Shown in pieces: positions 4,208 to 11,044 of a DNA stretch of 30,308 bases (positions are counted from its first letter, which is position 1; the number at the start of each line of letters is the position of its first letter). The DNA lies in NCBI GenBank assembly GCA_030448225.1, contig JAUJNJ010000005.1, forward strand, positions 1 to 30,308. Direction: 5' to 3'. Under the pieces are notes generated by a model. The model ran no database searches. It was not told the DNA's origin and saw only the letters and a program-made list of their open reading frames with translations. Source of the DNA: Phycisphaerae bacterium. GTDB lineage: Bacteria; Planctomycetota; Phycisphaerae; Tepidisphaerales; Tepidisphaeraceae. Made by a program: the position numbers and the translations under genes.

Positions 4208-6247
4208 TCACGTCCCCGTGCGGCCGGTCAGGCTGGCGATGACGGTGATCAGCTCGGCGGGCTCGATCGGCTTGGCGACGTGCATCTGGAAGCCGGCCAT
4301 CAGCGACCGCGTGCGGTCCTCCGACCGCGCGTACGCCGTCAGCGCGACGGCGGGCGTGGAGCCGCCGCGCTCGGGCGACAGCGCGCGCACGGCGCGGATC
4401 AGCGCGTACCCGTCCTCGCCCGGCATCCCCAGGTCGCTGACGAGCACGTCCGGGCCGCTTCGTCTCCACGAGGCCGATCGCGTCGGCGGCCGAGGCGGCG
4501 GTGACGACGACCGCCTCGCACGACTCGAGCAGCCGCACGACCGCCCGGCAGTCCGGCTCGTCGTCGACGACGAGCACCTTCACGCCGGTGATCCACGCAC
4601 GGGTCCGCCGGAACCGGCGGCAAGCAGCTCCGCTCGGTGGCGCCGGCGGCACCGCCGGCGGGGCCGCCGCGCCGGCGGCGCCGGTGGCGGCGACGGCGGT
4701 CGGCGCCGCGACGGACTCGGGCAGCAGTATGCCGCGGCCGCGTCGGCCGTCGTGGGCGCGATCGTGAACGTCGCGCCCTGCCCTTCGCCGGCGGCCGGCG
4801 ACGCGGATCGTGCCGCCGTGGAGTTCGACGAGTTGCTTGACGATGCTCAGCCCCAGCCCCAGCCCGCCGTGGCGTCGGGTGCTCGACGCGTCGGCCTGGC
4901 GGAAGCGGTCGAACACGTGGGCAGGAAGTCGGGGCGGATCCCTCGCCGGTGTCGCTCACGCTCAACTCGAGGTGCCCGCCCTCCGCCGCCGCGGCGACCG
5001 CGACGCCGCCTGCCCGCCCTTGGGCGTGAACTTCACGGCGTTGGCCAGCAGGTTCCACAGCACCTGCCGCAGCCGGCTCGGGTCGCCGACACGGCCCCGG
5101 CGGCCGGGTCGATCGCGACGTCGAGGCGCACGCCCTTGGCCTGGGTGCCGGGCCGCACCGTCTCGACCGCCTCGCGCACGATCGGGCCGAGGCTGACCCG
5201 CTGCACGTCGAGGCGGATGCGGCCGCTGACGATCCCGCTCATGTCGAGCAGGTCCTCGATGATCTGCGTCTGCGCGCTCGCGTTGCGGCTCGATCGTCTC
5301 CAGGCCCTGGTCGAGGTCCTCGGCGTCGGTCGGGGCGATCGCAGGATGCGCGACCAGCCGAGGATCGCGTTGAGCGGCGTGCGCAGCTCGTGGCTGAGCG
5401 TGGCGAGGAACTCGTCCTTCATCCGCCCGGCGCGCTCGGCCTCGTCGCGCGCCCGCTCGTTGCCAGCAGCGCGTCGCGGCTCGCGCTCGGCGCGCTGCGG
5501 CTCGGTCACGTCGCGCGCGCCAGCTTCAGGTACCCCAACAGTTCGCCGCTGGCGCATGCGTCGCGGACAGCACGACGGCGGCGTCGAATGTGGTGCCGTC
5601 CTTGCGCAGCCGCGGGCCTCGCCCTTGTACTCGCCGGTGGCGGCCGCGACGTCCATCTCGAGCTGCGGCTGGCCGTTGGCGCGCGGTCGGCGGACGTGAA
5701 GAGCGCGCGAAGTCCATGCCGATCGCCTCGGCGTGGGCGTACCCCGTCATCCGGCGCGCCCGTCGTGCCAGGTGGCGATGCGGCCGTCGACGCCGACGAC
5801 GAAGATCGCGTAGTCGCGCGCCGTCGACGAGCGCGGAACTGCTGGTCGCGCTCGCGGAACGCCTCCTCGCTGCGCTGGCGCGCGGATCAGCGCGTTGATG
5901 ACGGTGGCGATCAGCTCGACCGGCTCGACCGGGCGGACGAGGTACGCGTCGGCGCGCTGTCGAGCCCGCGCGCGCGCCTCGCCGCCGACGAAGTTCGCCG
6001 ACAGGTGCAGGACCGGGATGTTGGCCGTCGCCGTGTCGGCCTTGATGCGGCGGCAGACCTCGAAGCCGTCGACGTCGGGGAGGCACGTCGAGGATCACGA
6101 GGTCGGGGTGGTCGGCCACCTTCCGCAGCACTCGCCGCCGTCGGCGGCCTCGACGACGTCGTACCCGGCCTTGAGCGAGCGGGTGACCGCGTAGCGGTTG
6201 GCCTCGTCGTCGTCCACGTGGAGGATGACCGCCTTACGCTCGTGCAC
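4208..6247 (-). CDS. Hybrid histidine kinase REC-PAS-HisKA-HATPase-REC, frameshifted in this sequence
   Basis: The last gene of the stressosome operon. The best start is GTG at 6247-6245, preceded by AGAGGAGGT with about 4 bases of spacing. The N-terminal receiver begins ERKAVILHVDDDEANRYAV and continues VILDV...GFEVC in other frames. A PAS segment follows (GARRMTGYAHAEAIGMDFAR, then RKDGTTFDAAVV). HisKA has FLATLSHELRTPLNAILGW, with the His codon at 5392-5390. The HATPase G2 region reads VFDRFRQADASSTRRHGG near 4916. The C-terminal receiver has VLVVDDEPDCRA and VSDLGMPGEDG, ending HVAKPIEP, with the stop at 4210-4208. The pieces lie in all three frames. For example, an extra base near 4458 separates VETKRP from DVLVSDLG, and others lie near 6130 and 6083. 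All expected motifs are present, so sequencing indels are more likely than decay. The terminal receiver pair suggests a phosphorelay output for the stressosome. Confidence 0.8.
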
Positions 6248-10093: not shown

Positions 10094-11044
10094 GGCGGCC
10101 CTCCGGGTGTAGGAGGTCGGGGGTCGGGGGTGGTCGTCGGGGCGGACCCGCTGGACGCCGATTGCTGCTGCTGTTGCTGCTGGCGGACGACGCGCATGCC
10201 GCGGCGGTGCAGGGCGCGCGAACGCGTCGGCGAGCGACGCCTTGGTGATCACGTCCTTCAGGTCGACGCCGAGGTGCACGATCGTCTGGGCGATCTGCGG
10301 GCGGATGCCGCTGATGATGCAGTCGGCGCCCATCAGCCGGGCCGCGGTCACGGTCTTGATCAGGTGCTGGGCGACGAGCGTGTCGACCGTCGGCACGCCG
10401 GTGATGTCGAGGATCGCGATCTCGGCGCCGGTCTCGACGATGCGGTTCAGCAGGCTCTCCATCACGACCTGCGTCCGCCCGCTGTCGAGCGTGCCGATCA
10501 TCGGCAGGGCCAGGATGCCCTCCCAGAGCTTCACGACCGGCGTCGAGAGTTCCATCACCTCCTGCTGCTGGCGGTTGATGACCTCCTCGCGCGTGCGCTG
10601 GTAGACCTCGACGGTGTAGAGCCCGAGCTTGTCGAGCAGGAGCGTGGCCGCCCACGACTCCTCGGCCAGCGCCTGCGCGTCGGCCGGGCCGATCGCCTGG
10701 CGGAGTCGGGCGAGCAGCGGCTGCTTGAACGAGAAGACGAACGTGGCGATCTCGGTGGGCGTGAACCCCTGCTGCGTGCGCGACTCGGTCAGCCCGCGGA
10801 GCAGGTCCCGCACCGGCTCCCACGCCTCGGACTCGACGTCGCCCGCGCCGCCGCCGCCGCCGCGTGCGATCGCCTCGCGGAACAGGCCCAGGAACTCGCG
10901 CGACTGCTCGCGCAGGTCCGACTCCTTGATCAGGTCGTCGCGGCGCGTGCCGGCGGCGGCCTGCTCCTTGAGCCAGTCCGTCAGCAGGTCCGGCTCGTGA
11001 CGCCGGACGACCTCGGCGATTCGCGACACTCCGTTCACGGCCAC
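10094..11044 (-). CDS. rsbR: RsbR-like stressosome sensor/scaffold protein
   Basis: The GTG at 11044-11042 has AGAAGGAGA about 6 bases upstream, and the frame then stays clean to about 10215. The N-terminal helical domain (EVVRRHEPDLLTDWLKEQ, LREQSREFLGLFREAI, FVFSFKQPLLARLRQA) resembles RsbRD-type sensor domains. A linker helix (VYQRTREEVINRQQQEVMEL) leads to the STAS domain: PVVKLWEGILALPMIGTLDS, AEIAILDITGVPTVDTLVA, CIISGIRPQIAQTIVHLGVD and LKDVITKASLADAFA. Threonines lie in GVPTVDT and IAQT, where RsbR proteins are modified by RsbT. A 2-base loss near 10210 shifts the frame to LHRRGMRVVR, followed by a run of seven Gln. No stop codon exists in any minus frame between 10215 and the rsbS start, so the true C-terminus is unclear. 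First gene of the operon; its signal is unknown. Confidence 0.88.

Follow-up and report, generated by a model that had tools for sequence, protein, structure and literature searches.

Relationship to described stressosomes

The stress-response system of Bacillus subtilis runs from a core of RsbR, RsbS and RsbT through RsbU, RsbV and RsbW to SigB. Here we describe an operon of six genes that shares this core, with its known phosphosites, and continues into histidine kinase genes; it lies at 11044–4208, on the minus strand, of a 30,308-nucleotide stretch from a Phycisphaerae bacterium (positions 1 to 30,308 of contig JAUJNJ010000005.1, assembly GCA_030448225.1), to which we refer as the window. 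It differs from the Bacillus system in that neither RsbU_N nor SigBFG is found over its cut-off in any of 26 genomes related to the window operon.

In other stressosomes RsbT phosphorylates RsbR and RsbS and is released (PMC3944199). RSTX modules, whose likely outputs include HisKA/REC phosphorelays, occur in several phyla (Heinz et al. 2022, PMC9237108). With the operon they share the series RsbR-RsbS-RsbT-RsbX, the histidine kinase and receiver genes downstream of it, and the lack of SigB. In the text of that paper, as distinct from the eleven downstream architectures of its Figure 3, RsbX is a single-domain PP2C phosphatase and RsbR is globin-coupled, whereas here both the RsbX-like protein and the kinase carry an extra head domain and RsbR has an RsbRD_N domain. 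The Vibrio vulnificus stressosome, with its D1/D2 pair, likewise has two-component genes beside the stressosome genes that are hypothesized to be the output, but this output is thought to act on cyclic-di-GMP, and the portions of the paper available to us describe no RsbT-like fusion (PMC10014275). Lastly, some Proteobacteria have RsbU_N-histidine kinases in rsbT operons and thus also a kinase beside rsbT, although their kinase carries an RsbT receptor domain and the kinase here carries an RsbT-like domain (PMC12143880).

Overview of the operon

The six genes, rsbR, rsbS, rsbT, a phosphatase, a fusion kinase and a hybrid kinase, lie head to tail (Table 1), and this layout, proposed in an earlier note made from the sequence alone, is borne out both by Pfam and by frameshift-aware alignment to relatives. 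Frameshifts clearly break five of the genes, whose precise limits are therefore uncertain, and rsbR is nearly intact. In the raw frames Pfam recognizes all six genes, with the matches of rsbT and the phosphatase under Pfam's own cut-off and the hybrid kinase appearing in pieces (REC, HisKA, HATPase, REC). The phosphatase and the fusion kinase each have an RsbT-like ATPase head at the N-terminus, which we designate T' and T'' respectively; neither head is named by Pfam in the raw frames, and both appear in the frameshift-aware alignment. We suggest, at what we would call even confidence, that this stressosome controls a histidine-kinase relay, and that the RsbT-like heads dock an RsbX-type phosphatase and the output kinase on it.

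Conservation of gene order

The query for a scan of a genome collection was the kinase head and linker only, and was thus independent of rsbRST. The best 80 of at least 507 relatives were taken as a kinase-anchored set; they carry 14 phylum labels, with 38 of the 80 in cyanobacteria. Upstream genes were counted at the 71 loci with at least 3 kb of upstream sequence. Open reading frame (ORF) calling within 6 kb recovered all four upstream genes in order at 58 of these, and a frame-by-frame scan did so at 12 of the remaining 13, which had been missed through the ORF caller, the overlap filter or the upstream limit. Genes for RsbR, RsbS, RsbT and the phosphatase are therefore found near the kinase at 70/71 loci, and at 69/71 the order is R-S-T-phosphatase-kinase; at L060 the kinase gene precedes rsbR, and the one true exception is L023, where R, S and T are undetectable. 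Downstream of the kinase, 75 loci have at least 700 bases, and the next same-strand gene qualifies at 66 of them (REC at 65, HATPase at 63, HisKA at 59) and at none of the other nine; a REC gene thus directly follows the kinase at 65/75. Among individual genomes, Paraburkholderia sp. D15 has the series R-S-T-phosphatase-fusion kinase, and Variovorax paradoxus has all six genes, with a kinase that lacks the head.

In a complementary search, three RsbT queries were run against genomes from the phyla of four loci, with the centre genome included in each set. Matches were found in 8 of 199 genomes of the Planctomycetota set (at 1e-12), and, at 1e-25, in 12/149 of the Acidobacteriota, 9/194 of the Cyanobacteria and 23/398 of the Pseudomonadota sets. 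Flanking sequences were collected at 51 places from part of these matches, and the exclusion of L118, which has no RsbT, left 50 loci, among which L117 is a weak match. The phosphatase is fused to a head at 30 of the 50, free at 18, and neither form is present at two; a histidine kinase lies downstream at 38. A kinase with the conserved linker adjoins 24 of the 30 head-fused phosphatases and none of the 18 free ones (0/18), while a T''-headed kinase adjoins 16 of the 30. Given the relatedness of the loci we attach no p-value to these counts, but they indicate that histidine-kinase wiring is common with both kinds of phosphatase, and that head-fused RsbX and linker kinase co-occur. Mirror-tree correlations of 0.47–0.84 were set aside, since shared ancestry alone can yield such values. 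The excluded L118 contains a lone histidine kinase with a T'' head (6222–7493) with no rsbRST in the fetched 12 kb, and L131, from the phylum set of L003, has a rearranged stressosome (3195–6410) in which an RsbT domain within a 283-residue protein precedes rsbR, rsbS and a free PP2C gene.

The earlier note had named conservation of the kinases beside rsbRST as its check, and both searches find histidine kinases to be conserved neighbours of the module. Its broader proposal of a stressosome wired to histidine kinases is accordingly supported by the conserved gene order, but such wiring is not new in principle, being reported already in PMC9237108 and PMC10014275.

Three RsbT-like domains per operon

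At E≤1e-10, a search with RsbT gave 36 matches in 12 relatives' genomes, 34 of them on the contig of the operon, with three matches in nine genomes, four in two and one in one. These three are accounted for by RsbT, by the head of the kinase (4e-19 to 3e-26) and by that of the phosphatase (1e-11 to 1e-17). In a tree built by a quick method from 106 rows of manually chosen loci and few alignment columns, with support from the Shimodaira–Hasegawa-like approximate likelihood ratio test only, the window's three RsbT-type domains each fall in the matching clade. These are T'' (24/24 rows and the window, support 97), T' (29/31 rows, the window and one standalone protein, support 95) and class-A RsbT (28/31 rows and the window, support 98); a class-B RsbT clade holds 8/9 rows with support 93. 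T'' alone is free of strays, and both class-A RsbT and T' have rows outside their main clades. At L171 and L192 a second ATPase stands as a gene of its own, with rsbT on one side and a free PP2C gene on the other, an arrangement resembling the fused phosphatase in two separate pieces; the L171 ATPase is in the T' clade, and that of L192 is near T' without support. L116 is not counted as a further split form, because it has a single ATPase gene. We also note that L191 (2252–3108) has two adjacent RsbT-like genes followed by a free PP2C and a histidine kinase, and that neither is in the T' clade.

The catalytic residues of these domains are nearly invariant. Among 321 domains from the fetched loci (114 T, 109 T' and 98 T'', each above a score limit, with a single domain of each kind taken per locus), the general base Glu, the N-box Asn and the Arg aligned with SpoIIAB Arg20 are each kept in T 114/114, T' 108/109 and T'' 98/98, and the G1 Asp in T 114/114, T' 109/109 and T'' 97/98. 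In SpoIIAB, Glu46 is the base, Asn50 is a magnesium ligand and Arg20 is near the anti-anti-sigma site (PMC10345196).

The RsbR, RsbS and RsbT core

The identity of the module is secure. The window rsbR, read through its frameshift, keeps both phospho-threonine motifs, PMIGT (Thr171-type) and VDT (Thr205-type), and the rsbS read-through has VDS (Ser59-type), the site numbers being our own assumed assignment to these motifs. In relatives, RsbR has the Thr171-type threonine in 99/124 and the Thr205-type in 112/124, with Ser in a further 5, and the RsbS site is Ser in 103/119 and Thr in 1, with 15 unmatched by the motif pattern. The GHKL catalytic Glu, Asn and Asp of RsbT are present in the window read-through and in 114/114 relatives. 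A sequence search of the PDB with a relative's RsbT at 0.001 found four SpoIIAB sequences and one histidine kinase, and no solved RsbT structure. Site numbers are those of PMC3944199.

The phosphatase and the fusion kinase

Because the window genes are broken, protein models were taken from relatives. The L003 phosphatase model (predicted local distance difference test, pLDDT, 87) has as its top PDB matches 3zt9 (template modelling score, TM, 0.92) and 3w40 (TM 0.85), both target-normalized. By their PDB titles 3w40 is RsbX and 3zt9 is a stressosome structure, which we take to be Moorella RsbX. The model also matches SpoIIAB over 135–146 columns, presumably through its head, the match table being without ranges. 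The PP2C metal-site motifs GD, DG, DG and DD are invariant in 30 aligned relatives. The relative's protein therefore has the RsbX fold with its metal-binding Asp residues, but the phosphatase differs from RsbX (3w40, 3zt9) in its additional N-terminal RsbT-like ATPase, so that it is not a single-domain protein, either in the window or at the 30/50 loci with the fused head. Since the relative's model is closest to 3zt9 and then to RsbX 3w40, the phosphatase is probably RsbX-like rather than RsbU-like and is more likely a reset enzyme; the earlier note suggested that released RsbT may act on the phosphatase, which is probably not an RsbU-like target.

The fusion kinase has its nearest named proteins in Tepidisphaeraceae and Phycisphaerales, and at E≤0.001 at least 7888 proteins are related to the first 240 residues of the window kinase, which cover the head, the linker and the beginning of HisKA; among the matches listed, none of six family members scanned (0/6) passes an NCBIfam cut-off. 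In a relative's model (pLDDT 83, predicted TM 0.49, with domain placement unsure) a single helix spans residues 161–248, from the linker into HisKA. The linker has a mean pairwise identity of 0.72, a value that is partly circular, since ALYAELD[ED] served as one of two seed patterns; in the RsbT-anchored set the motif pattern matches 15 of 25 linker kinases, and most of the misses are close variants. The earlier note considered binding of RsbT to the N-terminal domain of this kinase, which is not the simplest reading of a domain that lacks RsbU_N and is itself RsbT-like.

Sigma factors and RsbU in relatives

A survey for sigma factors and RsbU covered 26 related genomes with the operon, two of which (G001 and G002) have only the later genes on the contig. 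RsbU_N passes the cut-off in 0/26, with one sub-threshold match, and was found in the Bacillus subtilis control. SigBFG also passes in 0/26, and in one of 14 control genomes; weaker sigma-70 family matches are present in 26/26, the best being in cyanobacteria at 186–194 bits against a cut-off of 234. The prediction that there is no canonical RsbU/V/W/sigma-B set therefore holds in relatives for RsbU_N and SigBFG, RsbV and RsbW having been outside the survey. For the window itself, the absence of sigma factor, RsbU, RsbV and RsbW genes agrees with the 30 stretches scanned by Pfam, which are not every ORF.

A model for the output and its alternatives

From homology, the conserved residues and the logic of the operon we infer the following scheme. 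RsbR, with an RsbRD-type sensor, and RsbS would form a STAS scaffold that holds RsbT, and the heads of the phosphatase and the fusion kinase would dock on it as RsbT does, so that the stressosome would directly hold and release both the reset phosphatase, of RsbX type, and the output histidine kinase. Upon stress, RsbT would phosphorylate RsbS and RsbR and the bound partners would leave; the released kinase may then dimerize through its conserved coiled-coil linker and autophosphorylate, and the hybrid kinase would take up the phosphate on its receiver domains and hand it to an effector.

Several observations weigh against this scheme. The strongest evidence against docking being essential comes from kinases in which the linker is kept and no head is detected (L120, L176, L179–L185 and Variovorax L001; 10 of 107 linker kinases), the linker starting within the first nine residues in L120, L180, L183, L184 and L185; the existence of this subgroup means that docking by a T'' head cannot be essential to the design. 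Moreover, a T''-headed kinase adjoins 2 of the 18 free phosphatases, and of the 30 loci with a head-fused phosphatase six are without a linker kinase and five without any downstream kinase. The ATP-lid columns read DG[YF] in T and T' and otherwise in T'', to which a one-column offset may contribute, and the conservation of Arg, Glu and Asn could stem from the ATPase fold and ancestry rather than from docking to STAS domains. The headless kinases favour an alternative in which, as in Bacillus, the message is carried by free RsbT, which would bind the fusion-kinase linker in trans and order its coiled coil, with the fused head a later tethered copy that acts in cis. Activation of RsbU by RsbT through linker ordering (PMC12143880) provides a precedent, and the continuous helix from the linker into HisKA in the relative's model would suit it; yet the kinase lacks RsbU_N, a component of the known binding site for RsbT, and the head of the phosphatase is left unexplained, and we consider this alternative unlikely, if clearly worth entertaining. 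A gene on the same strand within 250 bases of the hybrid kinase is present at only 15 of 60 loci, and ten that were scanned have no shared family. This lack of a conserved effector, which also counts against the docking scheme, together with the PAS and receiver domains of the hybrid kinase, would be accommodated if the kinases were upstream, as extra sensors feeding a stressosome whose true output is unlinked. Such an arrangement seems to us quite improbable, as the head fusion places a stressosome-type domain on the kinase itself, and as the linked two-component pair in Vibrio is the hypothesized output there (PMC10014275).

A different concern is that the window operon is a decayed pseudogene cluster without function, given that the aligner needed 62 frameshifts across the six genes (1, 2, 4, 9, 18 and 28 from rsbR to the hybrid kinase). 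Against the closest relatives, however, there are no in-frame stops in any of the six genes at 52–79% identity, although the alignment of the fusion kinase to a more distant relative crossed one; the catalytic and phosphosite motifs are intact, and a neighbouring ORF of 828 codons is open. The pattern is thus probably one of sequencing indels, which fit better than decay, and we regard loss of function as very improbable indeed. The docking scheme, in which the stressosome itself holds and releases the phosphatase and the kinase, remains the reading that we prefer.

Features of the operon and neighbouring genes

The window is 72% G+C with no N. The rsbR gene starts with GTG at 11044, with AAGGAG ahead of it, and its single frameshift is at the last residues, the raw frame being open to 10010. 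Coordinates of the operon features are given in Table 1.

Table 1. Operon features in the window, listed along the minus strand; Pfam values are from raw frames, and identities and frameshifts from alignment to relatives.
Feature	Positions	Strand	Evidence
Candidate sigma-70-like promoter, TCGACA-18-TATAGT, ~107 bases upstream of rsbR	11151..11180	-	Consensus match alone; 1 in 3900-11800 versus 0.1 expected in shuffles
rsbR: RsbRD_N sensor domain and STAS; PMIGT and VDT kept	10177..11044	-	Pfam RsbRD_N 5e-26 (5.1e-26), STAS 3e-13 (3.2e-13); 192/282 identical to L043, 1 frameshift near 3' end; end uncertain
rsbS: single STAS, S59-type motif VDS	9740..10093	-	Pfam STAS 7e-7; 92/116 identical to L119, 2 frameshifts
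rsbT: STAS kinase of GHKL type (extent as aligned, ends uncertain)	9286..9618	-	Pfam HATPase_c 6e-5; 81/109 identical to L036, 4 frameshifts; class-A RsbT clade
Probable RsbX-like PP2C phosphatase with N-terminal RsbT-like ATPase head (T')	7993..9025	-	Pfam PP2C_2 7e-4; 162/314 identical to L013, 9 frameshifts; nearest structures to a relative's model 3zt9 and RsbX 3w40
Fusion kinase: RsbT-like head (T'')-coiled-coil linker-HisKA-HATPase	6502..7898	-	Pfam HisKA 3e-13, HATPase_c 4e-12; 296/441 identical to L003 (Phycisphaerales metagenome-assembled genome), 18 frameshifts; relative's model
Conserved linker of the fusion kinase (limits approximate); ETNRGVVALYAELDEKAE read at 7313-7260	7235..7425	-	Kept also in kinases without T'' head
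REC-PAS-HisKA-HATPase-REC hybrid kinase, at the end of the module	4208..6226	-	Pfam, in pieces; 393/622 identical to gene after L003 fusion kinase, 28 frameshifts, 0 stops

Divergent from rsbR is the open 828-codon gene (11661–14147, plus strand), which encodes a glycoside hydrolase of family 2 and contrasts with its broken neighbours. The next ORF downstream of the hybrid kinase (3282–3701, minus strand; 140 residues) has no Pfam match at 0.001. Further histidine kinases are encoded at 34–2043 (plus), 16099–17889 (minus) and 23973–26411 (plus), two of which have a receiver (PAS-HisKA-HATPase-REC and REC-PAS-GAF-HisKA-HATPase), and a bacteriophytochrome-like PAS_2-GAF-PHY-HisKA protein at 20251–22080 (plus) ends inside HisKA, probably through a similar frameshift. 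Rfam and tRNA scans of the window found nothing, and a search of viral contigs found no relative.

Implications

Titles and abstract openings among the literature matches listed, a scope that leaves aside figures and the Pane-Farre reviews of 2005 and 2017, contain neither an RsbT-fused histidine kinase nor an RsbT-fused RsbX. Within that scope the build appears to be undescribed, with three RsbT-like domains per operon, nearly all of which keep the catalytic Glu and Asn and the Arg aligned with SpoIIAB Arg20. We tentatively propose, with confidence a little short of even, a class of stressosome, spread across phyla, with RsbT in free form, on an RsbX-type phosphatase and on a histidine kinase, all three competing for the STAS scaffold, so that the stressosome itself would store and release kinase and eraser without a sigma factor or an RsbU-type receptor. 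The operon suggests a physical solution in which output kinase and phosphatase each bring an RsbT-like docking head, and this can be tested with single domains. If true, it would provide a role for a large set of generically labelled proteins, the relatives of the first 240 residues of the fusion kinase.

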